Assembly: GCA_017617235.1 (NCBI GenBank)
Contig: JAFZWQ010000044.1
Location: 1 to 58,851, forward strand
Length of the DNA: 58,851 bases
Source: Bacteroidaceae bacterium
Lineage (GTDB): Bacteria > Bacteroidota > Bacteroidia > Bacteroidales > Bacteroidaceae
Direction of reading: 5' to 3'
Each line of letters begins with the position of its first letter. The first letter of the stretch is position 1. Shown in pieces: positions 47,215 through 54,206 of the stretch. A program made the position numbers and the translations under genes. Under the pieces are notes generated by a model. It saw nothing but the letters and a program-made list of their open reading frames with translations. It did not search any database and was not told where the DNA came from.

Positions 47215-49920
47215 TCAATTTATTACCTTTCGGACGACGACGGTGCCATCGGGCTTGAGCTCGCGACTGATGACGAGCCCCCTGTGGTTGGCAGAGACGC
47301 GACGTCCCTGCAGGTCGTATGTAGAGGTGAAGGGCAGGGTAGTGGTCGGAAGCGTCTCGATGCCAGAGCCCTCTTCCACCACGTTGAAGACAACCGTGCA
47401 ATTATCTATGACAATATAATTACCACTTCCATACAAGTTATAGCTCAAGGCCAAAGCGTATTTACCTCCAACCTCTAAATTATCGAAATATGTATTAAAT
47501 GATACGTGTTCTCCGACTCCCAGCGTAACAAAATCGCCCATATAATCTATGCTTATGCTCTGTCCCGATTCATCTATCTGATACAAATCAATCCACAGAC
47601 CACCGTTTTCCAGTGCCGCAGTTCCTTTGTTCTTAATATAACCTTTGAAGTTTACCGTTGTCCCTTCTATGTCGCCGTTGGCGTTGGCATTGGTCAGGGC
47701 GAGACTGCCCGTCATGACGGGTGCAGGTGCCGATGGATCTATAACATCAAAATACTTTATGGTTTCATCATATTCAATAATGTTATCATCATCTTTGTAA
47801 TAGCCCATTACTATGAAATAATTTCCCCCAAGCTCCAAGTCTTTAAAGGATGTCGTGAAGGTGTTGCTGTTGCCTGGGGCGATGGTGACTAATTTGTAAT
47901 CTCGGGGAGCTGTCATCTTCCACTTTTCGGTCTCTAAGTTATGTTTATATAAAGCCACAAAGACCCAGCCATCTACGAGGGTTCCATCGCCAATATTCTG
48001 GAACTCTGCCGACACGTTGACTGTGTTCTCTTCCACATTGCCCTGTCTGTTGGCATTGGTCAGGGTTATGGTTCCTGTCAATTGCGGCTCTCCAGTATCC
48101 TCTGGGATGGTGATGCTGCCCACGGCAAAGGGGACAAACTGGTCATTTTCGTTTTTATAACATAAATTTAATTTCATCGTTCCTGCAGTTCTAGGCAAAT
48201 AGTCTATGTCGAACGTTACTGTTTCACCTGCTTTTGCTTCAAACATCCGTCCGCCTGTGATGACGTTGTCAACGGACAGATAAACATAGTTGTTGAAGTA
48301 TGTACCGTTGTTTGTAATCTGCGCCTGCACATTGACTCTACTAAAGAACTTTGCGTTGTCAATGGGAGCAATTTTTCCGCTCAGGTTGACTTCGGGTCCT
48401 GTCAGTGTCAGCGTATTGCCGCTGATGGTAGCTTTGATTCGATAGACGTCCGATCCCCAGCAGGGTTCCCAATCTTCAGAATCTTCAGAACGGCTCTCAA
48501 GAATAATGTAATAGTCACCATCGGCCAAGCTTGCTCCAAACGAGATATCACTAATGATGGTTTCAAATCCGAAAAGATTTTCAATAAAGCCAAAATGATT
48601 ACCTTCATCGATATCGACGCTTGTCTGATTGCTACTGCCATCCACTAATGCAAAACGTAGCGAATAATCGTGCCTATCGCCAGTTAAATTGTAACAAAGT
48701 ATTCTGATTTTTATTCCTGTGAAATCATCAGCATCAGAGGTGCGCGTGTAGCTGTCTGCTCCTTTATTGGTAAAGCCGTAAACGCTGAGCCGCTCTCCAG
48801 TCTTCCCGCCCGTGCTGTGCTGAATACCAACGATGGCATCCTGGCTGAAACTGTAGCCGTCATCGCTTCTGCTTGCTCCGGGAGATTTATTATTATAAGG
48901 GTTCAGTACGGACAGCAGGAAGTAGCCATTATCATCTCCGCCCCAGCCCCAGTTGATGTGGAACATACCATCGCCGTCGTATCCGTCAACGATGATTTCA
49001 TGGCCGCCACCTGTCGAGTGTCCGGCATAGAGCACCGGTCGGCTGTTGGCCAATTCGTTATAGATGAGATTCTCCCAATCAGTGGCGCTGAAGTGTTCAC
49101 GAGACAGGTATTGTATGGTCTTGTCGTAGTCGAAATACTGGCACAGAGCTTTTACGCAATTTATCGAGGGGGTACCGCTGACTTCTGCACAATATTCCAT
49201 CTCCAGGGCCTGCCCGCAGAGTTTCATCAGGGTGGCTACGGCATTCTTCTGTGCTGTTGTCTCGCTGCCGTCGTAGCGGTCAAGTATGTTGTCCCAGTCG
49301 ATGTCCGTTACGGGAATCTCGGGCATGTCGATTTCACTGATCCTAGTGGTATAGGCAGGGATAGCCATTGTCGTCTGGGCCGGATATTTGTAATAGTTAA
49401 GCACCTGTGCCATTGCCGTAGCCACACAGCCCGTCTTTGCCTTGTTCCCATCCACCATAGGACACATCTCATTATAAGGTGCAAGCTGATTCCATGTGCT
49501 GGTCAGCAAGGGGGCGACGGCCTCATGGATTGTGCTGTTCACCTGGGCTGCAGGATACTTGTCGAGGGCGCTGATTTGGCGCTCGTAGTCCTCTAACCAC
49601 GCCCGCATGTTCGTGGGGATATTGTCGACATCGAAGTTGCCGTCATCGGCATAGCCCAGAATGGCTGGCGTGCGGTCGTCGCCCGAGGCAATCACAAAGC
49701 CCTGCCCCTCACCCACGTTGAACACGTAGTAACTGGCAGTGGCTTGTGCACTCTGCAACTTCAGCGGGGCACGTGCCGCCTTCAACTTTCCACCTTGTGC
49801 CATCCGCGGACGACTGTTCACAAACACCCGTGCCCTCTGCATGGCCTGTTCCTGTGTCACCGGCGCTGCCATCAACACCATCGGCAGCAGCAGCAACCAA
49901 ATTCCAAATATCCTTCTCAT
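47215..49920 (-). CDS. Secreted C10-family cysteine peptidase with C-terminal CARDB-like domains
   Basis: This 901-residue protein has a signal peptide (MRRIFGIWLLLLPMVLMA). The propeptide region GFVIASGDDRTPAILGYADD is followed by the catalytic Cys in TGCVATAMAQVLNYYKYP and His in GGGHEIIVDGYDGDG, then FHINWGWGG. After the peptidase come several beta-sandwich repeats with the CARDB-like signature (TLTNANRQGNVEENTVNVSA and ALTNANANGDIEGTTVNFKG). It ends with YDLQGRRVSANHRGLVISRE. The peptidase core is like that at 1726-3807, but this protein is about 200 residues longer through the added domains. It is probably surface-located. Confidence 0.92.
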   Translation of the reverse strand: MRRIFGIWLLLLPMVLMAAPVTQEQAMQRARVFVNSRPRMAQGGKLKAARAPLKLQSAQATASYYVFNVGEGQGFVIASGDDRTPAILGYADDGNFDVDNIPTNMRAWLEDYERQISALDKYPAAQVNSTIHEAVAPLLTSTWNQLAPYNEMCPMVDGNKAKTGCVATAMAQVLNYYKYPAQTTMAIPAYTTRISEIDMPEIPVTDIDWDNILDRYDGSETTAQKNAVATLMKLCGQALEMEYCAEVSGTPSINCVKALCQYFDYDKTIQYLSREHFSATDWENLIYNELANSRPVLYAGHSTGGGHEIIVDGYDGDGMFHINWGWGGDDNGYFLLSVLNPYNNKSPGASRSDDGYSFSQDAIVGIQHSTGGKTGERLSVYGFTNKGADSYTRTSDADDFTGIKIRILCYNLTGDRHDYSLRFALVDGSSNQTSVDIDEGNHFGFIENLFGFETIISDISFGASLADGDYYIILESRSEDSEDWEPCWGSDVYRIKATISGNTLTLTGPEVNLSGKIAPIDNAKFFSRVNVQAQITNNGTYFNNYVYLSVDNVITGGRMFEAKAGETVTFDIDYLPRTAGTMKLNLCYKNENDQFVPFAVGSITIPEDTGEPQLTGTITLTNANRQGNVEENTVNVSAEFQNIGDGTLVDGWVFVALYKHNLETEKWKMTAPRDYKLVTIAPGNSNTFTTSFKDLELGGNYFIVMGYYKDDDNIIEYDETIKYFDVIDPSAPAPVMTGSLALTNANANGDIEGTTVNFKGYIKNKGTAALENGGLWIDLYQIDESGQSISIDYMGDFVTLGVGEHVSFNTYFDNLEVGGKYALALSYNLYGSGNYIVIDNCTVVFNVVEEGSGIETLPTTTLPFTSTYDLQGRRVSANHRGLVISRELKPDGTVVVRKVIN

Positions 49921-49995: not shown

Positions 49996-50280
49996 TTATG
50001 CTTCGTTTGCTATAAGTGTAATTTCACATGTCTGGAAATTAATTTCCCAGTTTCCTTTCGGATGGCTTTCCCATCCATATTGTTTGGCTTTTTCGTCCCA
50101 CCATTGTTGGAATTTTCGTCCTGTTTCACCCATGTCTTTCACTAGTTTTTCATATAGTTCGCTGTTGTCAGCTGTGAGAATTTTTGCCAGTTCGTTCAGG
50201 CCGTTGCGACGTTCGAAGAGACACTGTATCTCATTGCGTTCTTCTGGGGTTACTTTCCCGACTACTTTTCTTATTTCCAT
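49996..50280 (-). CDS. CXXX-repeat peptide modification system protein (small accessory)
   Basis: This 94-residue soluble protein (VVGKVTPEERNEIQCLFERR, ending NWEINFQTCEITLIANEA) matches my recollection of the small accessory protein that accompanies CXXX-repeat maturases in Bacteroidales. Its ATG lies inside the stop region of the preceding maturase (10-nt overlap), so it is translationally coupled and is the last gene of the cassette. Its biochemical role is unknown; it may bind the precursor or the maturase. Confidence 0.7.
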   Translation of the reverse strand: MEIRKVVGKVTPEERNEIQCLFERRNGLNELAKILTADNSELYEKLVKDMGETGRKFQQWWDEKAKQYGWESHPKGNWEINFQTCEITLIANEA

Positions 50281-51197
50281 CTGTTTACGATATTAAAGGG
50301 GTCTAAATAATCTATTTCCTTAATCTCTTCATGATCAGGCAGGAAGGTTCCATGTTTTCGGATGTGATTCAATAGGTCGCGGCTGGTATTGCGTTCCAGG
50401 TGTGCCACCACGCATTGTTCATGGCTCGGAGTGTTCACCTCAAACGTCGTCTTGCGGTTCAGCCAAATACAACGTTTGCAATGATAGGCATCGCAGTGAC
50501 GACAGATGGGGGCATATTCCAATTTGTAGAGTTGTTTGTTCTTGATGTCAAGTCCATGCTCCAAGTCGCCGATACAGTCTTTCTCATCCGCGTAGTAGAA
50601 TGCTGGGCAGACATAGAATTTTCCGTTGGGTGCTAGCGTGATTGTCGTGTCACCCGCTCCGCAGTTGTTCATTTGCGTGATCATCATACGGTCAGTAAGC
50701 AGGTTCAACTGTGGTGACTTGCCATCCACGAACATCGTCTCGACTTTTGCCGACAGTCTGCTAAGCAAGGCCTTATAAATGTCGAAGTATTCGTCGGTGA
50801 ATGTCTCAATGTCTGTCAGTACGATATTTAGCCTTGATACGTTAGTCAAAGTCTTGATGATGTCTGACTCGTGTGCAAACATCCCCTGTTTGTCTGTCCG
50901 CCACACCACTGGCACATCGGCTTTCACATCGCAGATGTCATCAGTCACCCATACGTCGGCATTCTCTCTCGTGGGTTTTATCTTCGAGTGATCTATACTC
51001 TCTATCAACTCGTCGTATTCAGCAGGCAGTTCGTAATCGGGATAGACATACTGAATCATCAGATTCTCCATCATGCCGAAACGGATACCTGCTCTTAACG
51101 TCTTGAGAGGCACCAATCGTTGTTCTGTCCTGGCGCTCTCATAGTGACAGAACGAAGTGCTCGTGTCGTCTAATAAAATAATAAGGTATTGTAACAT
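50271..51197 (-). CDS. CXXX-repeat peptide maturase (SPASM-like, lacks radical SAM CxxxCxxC)
   Basis: This 308-residue protein has no CxxxCxxC in its N-terminal half. The C-terminus has a SPASM-type Cys cluster: CGAGDTTITLAPNGKFYVCP, DCIGD, then CRHCDAYHCKRCIW and a final EQCVVAH. It therefore probably holds auxiliary Fe-S clusters or binds substrate but does not generate the 5'-deoxyadenosyl radical itself. It lies 5 nt after the radical SAM gene and overlaps the small accessory gene by 10 nt. The family name is from memory of the CXXX-repeat system. Confidence 0.75.
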   Translation of the reverse strand: MLQYLIILLDDTSTSFCHYESARTEQRLVPLKTLRAGIRFGMMENLMIQYVYPDYELPAEYDELIESIDHSKIKPTRENADVWVTDDICDVKADVPVVWRTDKQGMFAHESDIIKTLTNVSRLNIVLTDIETFTDEYFDIYKALLSRLSAKVETMFVDGKSPQLNLLTDRMMITQMNNCGAGDTTITLAPNGKFYVCPAFYYADEKDCIGDLEHGLDIKNKQLYKLEYAPICRHCDAYHCKRCIWLNRKTTFEVNTPSHEQCVVAHLERNTSRDLLNHIRKHGTFLPDHEEIKEIDYLDPFNIVNRWK

Positions 51198-51202
51198 GAT
51201 GG

Positions 51203-52426
51203 TCAGCAGATTTCTGGTTTTACGTCCTTCTTGTTCCTCTCATATTCCTCGCGCAGTCCCTCTAACTCCAGCTTGCGGTAGAGCTTGTTCCAATAGTAGT
51301 TATTGGCACGTACTCGGGCTTTATGCATCTTGCAGATAGCCGTCGAACGTTGGTAAATAGTGTTTGTCACAGCCGCATCATAGTTTTCTCCCTGACACCA
51401 GGCACATCCACTGGCCACCTCACATTCGATGCATTCCTGCGGGCTTTGTGTGGTGCGGTCGAGTGTCAAGAATGGTCGAAGTTTGTTCTTATCAATACCG
51501 TCGTATATGTTGCCGATAATAATTGGGTGTTTCGAGCGCAACGAATAGCCTGCAAAGCGAGTACAAGGATAAAAATTTCCAGCCGCATCTACGGCCAACA
51601 TCATGCCTGCACCACACCAGTTTTGATTTTGCATAACTCTATCCAATGGCTTACCTATCATTTCCGAAAAGAATGAACAGGAATAACCTTGATACCACTC
51701 TCCGTCTATTATCGCATCTGCCAATTGTAATAACTGGTTTTCAAATAACAGGTCATCACCTTCATGCCATACATCTTCAAAAACACAATTGATGTTCACA
51801 TCGCGTATTCCCAAAGAATACAGATGCAGTACACTCTCCTTAACATAAGGCAGGTCTGCAGAACTTATAGTAACCTTGGTTCCGCTGTCTTTAAATTGTG
51901 AAAGCCATAGAGGAATATTACGAAGAACATCCTGATAGGAACCCTTGCCAGAACCTTTGTACACACGGTTTAAGTTATGCTTCATCTCCGTTCCGTCGAT
52001 AGTGATACCTATGCTCAGGTGCGATTTGTTTTTTTCGATGAATTCCTGAACCTTTTGCTCGTGGTAGTTGATTCCATTTGTTGAGAAAGAGAAACGGTAG
52101 GAATTGAACCAGTGATGGTCAAGCCTGAACATCTCCGTCTTGATGTAATCGCATATTTTATTGATTAGGTCAATCTCCAAAAACGGTTCGCCTCCAATAA
52201 AGTCAAATACGACCGATGGCTGGCGAAAATTTTCCTGGGCTAATATGTAGTCAATAGCCTGTTTGGCAACCTCCCATGACATGCGCTCTTTGGTATTCTT
52301 TCCTACCAGATAGCAGTATTTGCAGGCCAACTGACAATCCTTCGTGACAATGAACGTAATGTTCTTTGCCATGCCCTCCTGCCAGGCGTTCTTCCGTATT
52401 TTTATGATGTCCGACGAATTATCCAT
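51203..52426 (-). CDS. Radical SAM/SPASM peptide maturase, CXXX-repeat target type
   Basis: This protein is about 407 residues from ATG 52426, whose first codons overlap the stop of the Cys-rich protein by 8 nt (ATGGATAA). The radical SAM motif CQLACKYC gives Cys 31, 35 and 38, with FIGGEPFLEI as the SAM-binding Gly-rich motif. The C-terminal SPASM domain has WCGAGMMLAVDAAGNFYPCT and CIECEVASGCAWC. It probably crosslinks or otherwise modifies the adjacent CXXX-repeat protein in the cytoplasm. A longer upstream frame exists but lies inside the target gene. Confidence 0.88.
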   Translation of the reverse strand: MDNSSDIIKIRKNAWQEGMAKNITFIVTKDCQLACKYCYLVGKNTKERMSWEVAKQAIDYILAQENFRQPSVVFDFIGGEPFLEIDLINKICDYIKTEMFRLDHHWFNSYRFSFSTNGINYHEQKVQEFIEKNKSHLSIGITIDGTEMKHNLNRVYKGSGKGSYQDVLRNIPLWLSQFKDSGTKVTISSADLPYVKESVLHLYSLGIRDVNINCVFEDVWHEGDDLLFENQLLQLADAIIDGEWYQGYSCSFFSEMIGKPLDRVMQNQNWCGAGMMLAVDAAGNFYPCTRFAGYSLRSKHPIIIGNIYDGIDKNKLRPFLTLDRTTQSPQECIECEVASGCAWCQGENYDAAVTNTIYQRSTAICKMHKARVRANNYYWNKLYRKLELEGLREEYERNKKDVKPEIC

Positions 52427-53372
52427 AGCGGTACGATGTTCCATAGCATGCTCCTTTACAGGTTTGCAAACAACCCGCATAGCACGTGGTGTCGCAACCT
52501 CCTTTGCAGGTGGTATCACACAATACTGAACACGATGTAGTGCACGAACTACGGCATTCCGCTGTACATGTGCTACCACATTGACCAGTGCAGCCACTTG
52601 AACAACCTCCCGAACAACCTCCTACACAATTGCCAGTACAAGTAGTGCTACAACCGCCGCTGCAACTTCCTGTGCATGAACTCCCGCATCCACCCGTACA
52701 ACTGCCTTTACAGGCGTTTTCGCAACTCCCACTACAACTTCCTGTGCATGAACTCCCACATGCACCCGTGCAACTAGAAGTGCATTCGCCAGAACAATTT
52801 GCAGAACAAACAGCACTACAGTCTGTACAAGTACTTGATGGCGAATAATGACCATTTAGAAGATGCAGATATCCACTTCTGTTAGCCACTTCAGGGGTTC
52901 CATTATATTTGGTCAGCTTTCCGATGAGGAGGACTTCATCGCCGGTATTTAGGAGCGCTCCATAATTGTAAGGAGTATTATGAAGATAATAGGCTCTATA
53001 AACAAGTAACGTATCACCCGTGGTGCCAAGGTCACTCAGATAGAATGTGGCAGTACCTTCCTCAATGCTGTAATTGTAAGTAATAGAGTTCACTCGTCCA
53101 TTAATTATCACCTCATCAGTCATCTCTCCATCGGCCAGTTGGCTTGCAACTTTATATGCTTCCGAGGGACTGTAAGGTGACATAAAAGTACCATCTCCTT
53201 TAGAAGAATAAGGGTTGGGAGTAGGCGGATATTCAACATCATCATCCCCACAAGACATTAATATCGTAGGGCCAAACGCTATGATACCTAAGATAGGCAA
53301 CACACCCTTGGCTGCCTTCTTGAAGAATTCCCTTCGTGACTGAAGTTCTTCGTTGTTCTTGTCCTTCTTCAT
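52419..53372 (-). CDS. Tat-lipoprotein with OB-like domain and 32-unit CXXX-repeat tail (rSAM target)
   Basis: This 317-residue protein has a twin-arginine motif SRREFFKKAAKG (Arg 13-14). A hydrophobic segment ends in the lipobox LMSC (Cys 41), predicting Tat export and lipidation. Residues about 70-175 resemble the OB-like exported domain DUF6359 (VIINGRVNSI, ATFYLSDLGTTGDTLLVYRA, GKLTKYNGTPEV). From Cys 182 the tail is C-x-x-x repeated without a break: after an initial CTD, 32 cysteines in exact four-residue register (CSAV, CSAN, ... CKGA, CYG). The spacer residues are mostly Ser, Thr and Gly. It is the probable substrate of the downstream maturases. A Tat route would suit a tail modified before export. 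Confidence 0.85.
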   Translation of the reverse strand: MKKDKNNEELQSRREFFKKAAKGVLPILGIIAFGPTILMSCGDDDVEYPPTPNPYSSKGDGTFMSPYSPSEAYKVASQLADGEMTDEVIINGRVNSITYNYSIEEGTATFYLSDLGTTGDTLLVYRAYYLHNTPYNYGALLNTGDEVLLIGKLTKYNGTPEVANRSGYLHLLNGHYSPSSTCTDCSAVCSANCSGECTSSCTGACGSSCTGSCSGSCENACKGSCTGGCGSSCTGSCSGGCSTTCTGNCVGGCSGGCSSGCTGQCGSTCTAECRSSCTTSCSVLCDTTCKGGCDTTCYAGCLQTCKGACYGTSYRYG

Positions 53373-53707: not shown

Positions 53708-54016
53708 TTAACCCTTGTTCATTTTTGCGGGAAGAATACGGTCGACGATTACAAAGTCTTCTTCTATATGAAATACATATATCCAGCGGCGGTTATGCGA
53801 CACCATTCTGCGAGCTTCCGGGTGAATTTTGCGTAAAGTTTTGGAAGTGGTACGACCAATGCAATCTGCATAGACGGACAGCATTTTTATTTCGGCCCTC
53901 ATGTTGTTTGCATAGCGTATTGCACCTTCCTCAGACAGCATTGCATCCAGGAAAGTCTGCAAACTGGCCATGTCTGCATGGGCTGCATGGCTGATTCGCA
54001 CCTCATAGATTCGCAT
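53708..54016 (-). CDS. RelE/ParE-family toxin
   Basis: This protein is about 102 residues from ATG 54016 (MRIYEVRISHAAHADMASL). It has the ParE pattern: a first beta strand, two helices (LQTFLDAMLSEEGAIRYANN), a central Arg-containing strand, and the C-terminal IYVFHIEEDFVIVDRILP pair of strands. Known relatives inhibit gyrase or cleave mRNA; the target here is unknown. It overlaps the upstream antitoxin-like gene by 14 nt and is preceded by a consensus promoter. The start may be earlier, but that would extend into the antitoxin frame. Confidence 0.78.
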   Translation of the reverse strand: MRIYEVRISHAAHADMASLQTFLDAMLSEEGAIRYANNMRAEIKMLSVYADCIGRTTSKTLRKIHPEARRMVSHNRRWIYVFHIEEDFVIVDRILPAKMNKG

Positions 54017-54206
54017 AGTCCTCGTGAACGCGTGCGATGAGTTCGTCGAAATACTCATCAACAGAAACCGTACTTGCCATCACACGTTCTCTTGTGGAAT
54101 CATCTTTTGACGGAGTATGATAGCGACGACTCGTTTCATAAGCCACAGCAGGTTCAGCGGCAACCATAACCGAATCGGTTTCCATATCAGGATACTTTTT
54201 CACCAT
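54003..54206 (-). CDS. Probable antitoxin of the ParE-like pair
   Basis: This 67-residue protein has a disordered, acidic N-terminal half. A C-terminal helix with the 'VDEYFDELIARVHEDY' pattern resembles antitoxins that wrap ParE/RelE toxins. There is no recognisable DNA-binding domain, which is common for the Bacteroidales members of this type. It is translated first and overlaps the toxin start by 14 nt. Confidence 0.65.
   Translation of the reverse strand: MVKKYPDMETDSVMVAAEPAVAYETSRRYHTPSKDDSTRERVMASTVSVDEYFDELIARVHEDYANL

Follow-up and report, generated by a model that had tools for sequence, protein, structure and literature searches.

Why should genes for a radical enzyme of the peptide-modifying type lie beside the gene for a predicted lipoprotein whose tail carries a cysteine at every fourth position, and how would such a protein leave the cell? 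The question is raised by a cassette of four minus-strand genes at 49996-53372 of a 58,851-nucleotide stretch from a Bacteroidaceae bacterium (contig JAFZWQ010000044.1, assembly GCA_017617235.1), the whole of which is called the window here. Besides the cysteine-rich target, the cassette encodes a radical S-adenosylmethionine (SAM)/SPASM enzyme, a SPASM-only protein as its partner, and an accessory of 94 residues. The reading that we favour, and think reasonably probable, is that of a maturation cassette akin to those of ribosomally synthesized and post-translationally modified peptides (RiPPs), in which the tail would be modified in the cytoplasm, the folded protein exported by the twin-arginine translocation (Tat) pathway and the product held at the cell surface as a lipoprotein. 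The four genes, all on the minus strand, are as follows.

52419..53372, minus strand: target protein of 317 residues, with a Tat signal, a lipobox, an OB-like (oligonucleotide/oligosaccharide-binding-like) domain and a C-terminal CXXX array

51203..52426, minus strand: radical SAM/SPASM maturase of 407 residues, family TIGR04115, motif CQLACKYC

50271..51197, minus strand: SPASM-only partner of 308 residues, family TIGR04119, with seven invariant cysteines in the SPASM region and an invariant Cys17

49996..50280, minus strand: accessory protein of 94 residues, family TIGR04116

The target and radical SAM genes overlap by 8 nt, a 5-nt gap separates the radical SAM and SPASM-only genes, and the SPASM-only and accessory genes overlap by 10 nt. 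The 8-nt overlap assumes the ATG that places the end of the radical SAM gene at 52426; a second in-frame ATG is present at 52444. An earlier, sequence-only reading of this DNA had described the same layout, and its coordinates, strands and spacings are all correct. The motif that it reported in the second gene is present, its SPASM-like third protein has a seven-cysteine SPASM-like set and no CX3CX2C motif, and its 94-residue accessory matches TIGR04116 above the cut-off. Three parts can be distinguished in the target.

53250..53372, minus strand: signal region, residues 1-41, LQSRREFFKKAAKGVLPILG...ILMSC followed by GDDDVE, with RR at 13-14 and the predicted lipidation site Cys41

52833..53204, minus strand: OB-like domain, approximately residues 57-180, found also in the targets of loci L210 and L054, with sub-threshold Pfam matches

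52446..52829, minus strand: CXXX array, residues 182-309, with 32 cysteines in a register of four, plus Cys182

The final 136 residues of the target contain 33 cysteines. As had been noticed from the sequence, 32 of them, at residues 185-309, are spaced exactly four apart without a break, and the remaining one, Cys182, lies three residues ahead of the first in-register cysteine. Shuffling the tail 20,000 times gave no register run longer than 10 (mean 3.1), so the register is not a product of chance.

The three proteins encoded with the target were compared with the radical-SAM peptide-maturase hidden Markov models of NCBIfam, a check that the earlier reading had proposed. TIGR04115 matches the radical SAM protein with 623.9 bits (cut-off 350; the score was obtained with an upstream-extended frame of 446 residues). 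For the SPASM-only protein the score is 241.1 bits with TIGR04119, whose cut-off is 150, and the accessory reaches 94.9 bits with TIGR04116, whose cut-off is 50. Because all three pass curated NCBI cut-offs, the maturation set is, by sequence, of a kind already known in silico. The target itself falls under the cut-offs of both target models, with 31.9 of 50 bits for TIGR04117 (residues 3-33) and 15.5 of 20 bits for TIGR04114, and is not filed under either, though its CXXX array is plain in the sequence. The NCBIfam CXXX-repeat system (TIGR04114-TIGR04117 and TIGR04119) has the same three maturation proteins and a CXXX array in the adjacent gene, but the window's target fails both target models and is a domain-bearing putative lipoprotein, and the tat genes linked to the relatives' cassettes, described below, appear in none of the family names examined.

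After its own family, the radical SAM protein matches the models of cysteine-peptide maturases best, among them PapB, CcpM and SCIFF, all well below the cut-offs of those models; for PapB the score is 199 bits (E 1.1e-58), where 340 are required. Among solved structures the best match is to 5wgg (E 3.2e-37), the thioether maturase CteB. In the aligned relatives the full catalytic cysteine motif is kept. The SPASM-only protein matches the SPASM domain of the maturase in a profile comparison (E 7.6e-6) and the SPASM region of 5wgg (E 0.004), and in 57 aligned SPASM-only proteins Cys17 and the seven SPASM-region cysteines are invariant. The accessory gave only chance-level matches to the sequences of solved structures (best E 0.24). 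One relative (L037) encodes its TIGR04119 and TIGR04116 proteins as a single open reading frame (ORF) of 510 residues, each part of which passes its cut-off, and this fusion supports a putative physical complex of the SPASM-only protein with the accessory; L038 has an ORF of equal length at the same position.

Of the genomes sampled, TIGR04115 occurs in 6 of 395 from the phylum and 42 of 399 from the family, the window's genome being in both samples, and a scan of named contigs gave at least 80 loci, mainly from gut and rumen Bacteroidales. Two (L168 and L186) are labelled Clostridia or Lachnospiraceae and possibly lie on mis-binned contigs. Cultured carriers include Xylanibacter rarus strain 109 (L164) and Bacteroides sp. 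GM023 (L208). In all, 129 loci were analysed (48, a further 80 from named contigs, and the window), or 116 when exact copies are removed; loci were merged only when 600 bases were identical, so that near-copies remain and counts are not independent, and many of the sampled genomes are incomplete metagenome-assembled genomes. A CXXX target ORF, defined by a register run of at least 5, lies within 3.5 kb upstream in 103 of the 107 loci with at least 1.5 kb of upstream sequence. There are 176 targets in total; the window's register run is among the long ones, but in 6 targets the run is longer still, the maximum being 44. Some targets hold a non-CXXX domain between two cysteine-repeat stretches (L043, 5261-6511; L052, 6087-7313); the inserted domain of L052 has a weak match to Fib_succ_major (E 0.00025, under the cut-off), and that of L043 has no Pfam match.

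Among the N-terminal signals of these targets, RRxFF is present in 165 of the 176 and RRxF in 169. When the first Arg of the 165 RRxFF targets is taken as position 0, Leu occupies +12 in 92% and Pro occupies +13 in 98%; the predicted leader reads RRxFFKxAxxxxLPxLG. Two loci from another family (L039 and L041) have short five-cysteine targets that lack RR and contain RKTLPG; no accessory was found in the L039-L041 group, where an ATP-binding cassette (ABC) exporter follows the maturases (confirmed with Pfam on L041). The persistence of the Pro in these Tat-less targets suggests that the LP element is tied to recognition by the maturases and that the export route was swapped, so that the Tat signal may double as the maturase leader. 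Of 85 loci, 81 have both the accessory and an RRxF target, 2 have neither and 2 have an RRxF target without accessory; the pairing is only a hint, the two loci with neither being close relatives.

In the window, the signal consists of S-R-R-x-F-x-K followed by a hydrophobic stretch, with the twin arginines at 13-14 that the sequence-only reading had pointed out. The genome contains a tatC (G000 C44:27983-28609), and by its signal and this gene the target is a predicted Tat substrate. The lipobox, also noticed before, is the loose fit LMS-Cys41, with Met at -2. Among the RRxFF targets a lipobox rule fits 53 of 165 (a few of them doubtful), and 35 of these 53 have at least two acidic residues in the next six. 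The CGDDDVE start of the window's target resembles such a signal: in the parts of PMC5080379 that deal with it, acidic starts after the lipid-bearing Cys are a surface-export signal of Bacteroidetes, and SDDDD is proposed for Bacteroides fragilis. Comparison of sequences goes some way with the earlier claims of Tat export and membrane tethering: lipid anchoring of this member is a supported prediction, and for export the signal and the linked tat genes stand, while translocation itself stays a prediction. The modification of each Cys unit, the thioether links and the rigid or metal-binding rod of that earlier reading are hypotheses.

A further indication of a Tat route lies downstream of the maturation genes. 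Where downstream sequence reaches 4 kb or more (98 distinct loci), the accessory is followed by tatA and tatC in 71, by tatA without tatC in 2 and by neither in 25. In the 80 linked cases the distance from the radical SAM gene to the start of tatC has a median of 1.5 kb and is no more than 2 kb in 73. One example of each was confirmed with Pfam (TatA, PF02416, E 6.6e-14; TatC, PF00902, E 1.7e-58). In a FastTree phylogeny of the 80 linked and 51 other TatC proteins, 72 linked copies form one clade (support 100), 7 form another (98) and 1 stands apart; 45 of the other copies, including that of the window's genome, share a clade with support 97, and the remaining 6, from more distant or Bacteroides-type genomes, make up two small groups. 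The other copies are the best-scoring matches with loci and not a random sample; of 56 such rows, 4 were dropped because the sequence to be aligned contains stops and 1 because it duplicates a linked copy.

The number of tatC genes also goes with the cassette. Two or more tatC are present in 25 of the 42 cassette-bearing genomes of the family and in 16 of the 357 cassette-free ones (Fisher p 4e-18); at least one is present in 41 of the former and in 275 of the latter (p 9e-4). A linked tatC and at least one other occur in 22 of the 42. The cassette's tatC is the only one found in 7 (G475, G489, G515, G630, G637, G715 and G787), one genome (G467) has a tatC 7.7 kb from the cassette plus another, and 9, the window's genome included, have no linked tatC and one or two elsewhere. 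The other 3 have cassette contigs that end too soon to be judged. Two to five tatC also occur in cassette-free genomes, the 16 in question being G474, G502, G513, G530, G544, G635, G639, G651, G667, G680, G695, G697, G706, G714, G729 and G746.

The window itself appears to be a derived case. Its radical SAM enzyme groups with those of L054 and L210 (support 98) in a tree of 116 rows less L083 and L084, which are too short. L054 and L210 are the only other loci whose targets were recognised to have the same OB-like domain. Both of these cassettes have linked tatA and tatC, and the L054 target likewise has a 32-cysteine run. The tatC found in the window's genome is single and of the general type. 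The simplest history suggested by this comparison is that the window's line lost its tat pair; the genome is 85.5% complete, so that the assembly could lack a tatC of the cassette type located elsewhere. The OB-like domain is 40% identical to that of L210 and 28% to that of L054. The OB label given earlier has sub-threshold Pfam matches to PF01336 as its only support (E 0.028 in the window's target; E 0.00033 in the L210 target, 21 bits against a cut-off of 27); the sequences of solved structures gave chance-level matches to this region (best E 0.26).

In the favoured mechanism, the Tat signal of the target would also act as a leader, by which the maturases are recruited. In the cytoplasm the CXXX array would then be modified by the radical SAM enzyme, the most likely product being a thioether between the Cys sulfur and a carbon within the same unit or adjacent to it. 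The SPASM-only protein would assist, with extra iron-sulfur clusters for electron transfer or in handling the substrate, and the 94-residue accessory would serve in leader recognition or as a Tat-signal chaperone. Since the finished protein would be rigid and could not pass the Sec translocon unfolded, it would exit by Tat, through the cassette's TatA-TatC in many relatives and through the remaining general TatC in the window's organism. The target would be lipidated at Cys41 and then, as its acidic CGDDD start indicates, probably exposed at the surface. There the OB-like domain would be displayed or serve in binding, and the cross-linked tail would form a module that resists proteases. The sequences themselves show the order and families of the genes, the array, the signal and the linked tat genes with their separate clade; the reaction, the role as leader, the place at the surface and the use are inferred. 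A wider proposal, for which we see about as much reason to accept as to doubt, is that CXXX cassettes in general are self-contained make-and-export units, with their own TatA-TatC, a dual leader and Tat signal, and cross-linked, domain-bearing surface proteins, the window having lost its translocase and borrowing the general one.

Several observations weigh against this mechanism. The link to a dedicated Tat system is not universal: no tatC lies within 6 kb in 27 of the 98 loci, 25 of which also lack tatA, and in one of the unlinked loci (L081) a tatC is found 7.7 kb away on the same contig. In the window no trace of tatC was detected at E 1, and two chance-level matches to tatA at that threshold lie far from the cassette. 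The Fisher p-values given above ignore relatedness. The radical SAM enzyme has no N-terminal domain of the size of a RiPP recognition element (RRE): in the window's enzyme the radical SAM core begins after only about 20 residues, the alignment to 5wgg starts at residue 93 of the 453 in that chain, and the unmatched N-terminal part of 5wgg is presumably the RRE. Finally, acceptors of the PapB type are scarce. The Cys-X3-Asp/Glu motif is not found, the residue at +4 being Cys by construction, and Asp or Glu is present in 564 of 2916 CX3C units (5 of 31 in the window), so that a PapB-like acidic acceptor, the kind studied best, cannot serve most units. Ser or Thr is present in 2160 of the 2916 (26 of 31 in the window).

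The scarcity of Asp and Glu would fit a different radical reaction, such as epimerisation, carbon-carbon bonding or the linking of Cys to Cys, with CX3C taking the place of the CX3D of PapB; the residue four positions on, which is Asp in PapB, is the next Cys in these arrays. We know of no precedent for the linking of Cys to Cys by an enzyme of this class. The closest characterised relatives make cysteine thioethers, as passages of PMC9413430 describe, and a reaction other than thioether formation is considered unlikely.

Composition also leaves room for an array of the metallothionein or iron-sulfur-binding kind, in which the cysteines would stay free. Export by Tat would then be needed because the metal is loaded in the cytoplasm, and loading or protecting the metal sites would be the task of the radical SAM and SPASM proteins. 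At the three X positions of 2720 units (arrays of at least 4 units) Pro amounts to 0.3, 0.0 and 0.1%, compared with 3.7% in the SPASM-only and accessory proteins, and Ser, Thr and Gly dominate; a cysteine-rich, nearly Pro-free array of this make-up would suit metal binding, and Tat typically exports cofactor-loaded proteins. The enzyme, however, groups with peptide maturases and keeps its catalytic motif throughout the aligned relatives, and to our knowledge no metallothionein needs a radical SAM enzyme, which makes this explanation distinctly unlikely. An alternation of residue types over two units (z about 2 to 4) was given no weight, as it may stem from recent tandem duplication. A toxin or signalling peptide cut from the target and secreted is suggested by relatives with short non-lipidated targets and by the Tat-less ones with an ABC exporter, both of which are closer in appearance to classical peptide systems, but it is highly improbable here, with a predicted lipidated target of 317 residues and a folded domain, no dedicated protease in the cassette and a neighbouring C10 peptidase that is not conserved.

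The cassette shares features with several known systems and differs from each. The radical SAM and SPASM core is homologous to that of the ranthipeptide maturases CteB/SCIFF and PapB, whose class is defined by a thioether from Cys to a carbon other than the alpha carbon of an acceptor, but the window has a second, SPASM-only protein, lacks an N-terminal domain of RRE size, offers few Asp or Glu acceptors and has an array of 32 units instead of about six. General Tat export shares the RRxFF signal and the single genomic tatC; many relatives, in contrast, encode a TatA-TatC of a separate clade inside a peptide-maturation cassette. The acidic-signal surface lipoproteins of Bacteroidota have starts that CGDDDVE resembles; those studied in the relevant parts of PMC5080379 are apparently neither Tat-exported nor radical-SAM-modified.

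In the open-access literature searched (subscription papers and preprints lie outside this scope) we found no paper naming TIGR04114-TIGR04117, TIGR04119 or "CXXX repeat" in this sense, no link between radical SAM peptide maturases and a dedicated Tat system, and no account of the chemistry of the CXXX maturation set, in agreement with the earlier statement that such families exist and are chemically uncharacterised. Passages of a RiPP survey of Bacteroidales (PMC10352776) contain 0 occurrences of CXXX or Tat, and those of PMC10924467 a single, unrelated mention of radical SAM. The cassette-linked tatA and tatC, their own TatC clade, the extra tatC copies, the signal Pro and the window's missing tat pair are new; the earlier reading had mentioned neither the linked tat genes, which the window lacks, nor the signal Pro, nor the sister cassettes whose targets share the OB-like domain. 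If the mechanism is true, peptide-type radical chemistry is linked to Tat export, the extra Tat translocases of gut and rumen Bacteroidales have a reason, there is a natural route to surface display of densely cross-linked protein modules, and NCBIfam families without known chemistry become testable through constraints on leader, translocase and acceptor.

The genes on either side do not appear to belong to the cassette. The downstream neighbour, 75 nt away at 47215-49920, is a peptidase of the C10 (streptopain) type that has a Spi inhibitor prodomain; as a candidate maturation protease it was rejected, only one of the 115 other loci (L058) having a match, about 6 kb from its cassette. Another stretch of the window, 1726-2898, is homologous to this peptidase (39% identical). 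Upstream, at 53708-54206, two overlapping minus-strand ORFs of 67 and 117 residues are toxin-antitoxin-like in size and layout; Pfam gave nothing over the cut-off for either, and the pair was rejected as a cassette part, having no match in the other loci.

Relatives of the enzyme also occur on viral contigs. Three viral contigs of 246, 48 and 20 kb (L093, 384-7104; L096, 1342-7578; L095, 1498-2943) encode TIGR04115-like radical SAM proteins next to large cysteine-repeat proteins of 481 to 722 residues, which have no Tat signal. In L096, the upstream ORF weakly matches tail fibres (phrog_892, E 2.4e-5), while the cysteine-repeat protein matches phrog_6085 (E 5.8e-8), which raises the possibility of phage structural proteins modified by radical SAM enzymes. 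The radical SAM ORF of the same contig (1342-4731, 1129 residues) appears, by inspection, to have two intein-like inserts, one of them within the cluster motif. In a radical SAM gene of a 185-kb viral contig (L090, 3001-4224), an in-frame TAG directly follows the cluster motif, for which a pseudogene, readthrough and another genetic code are the candidate explanations.

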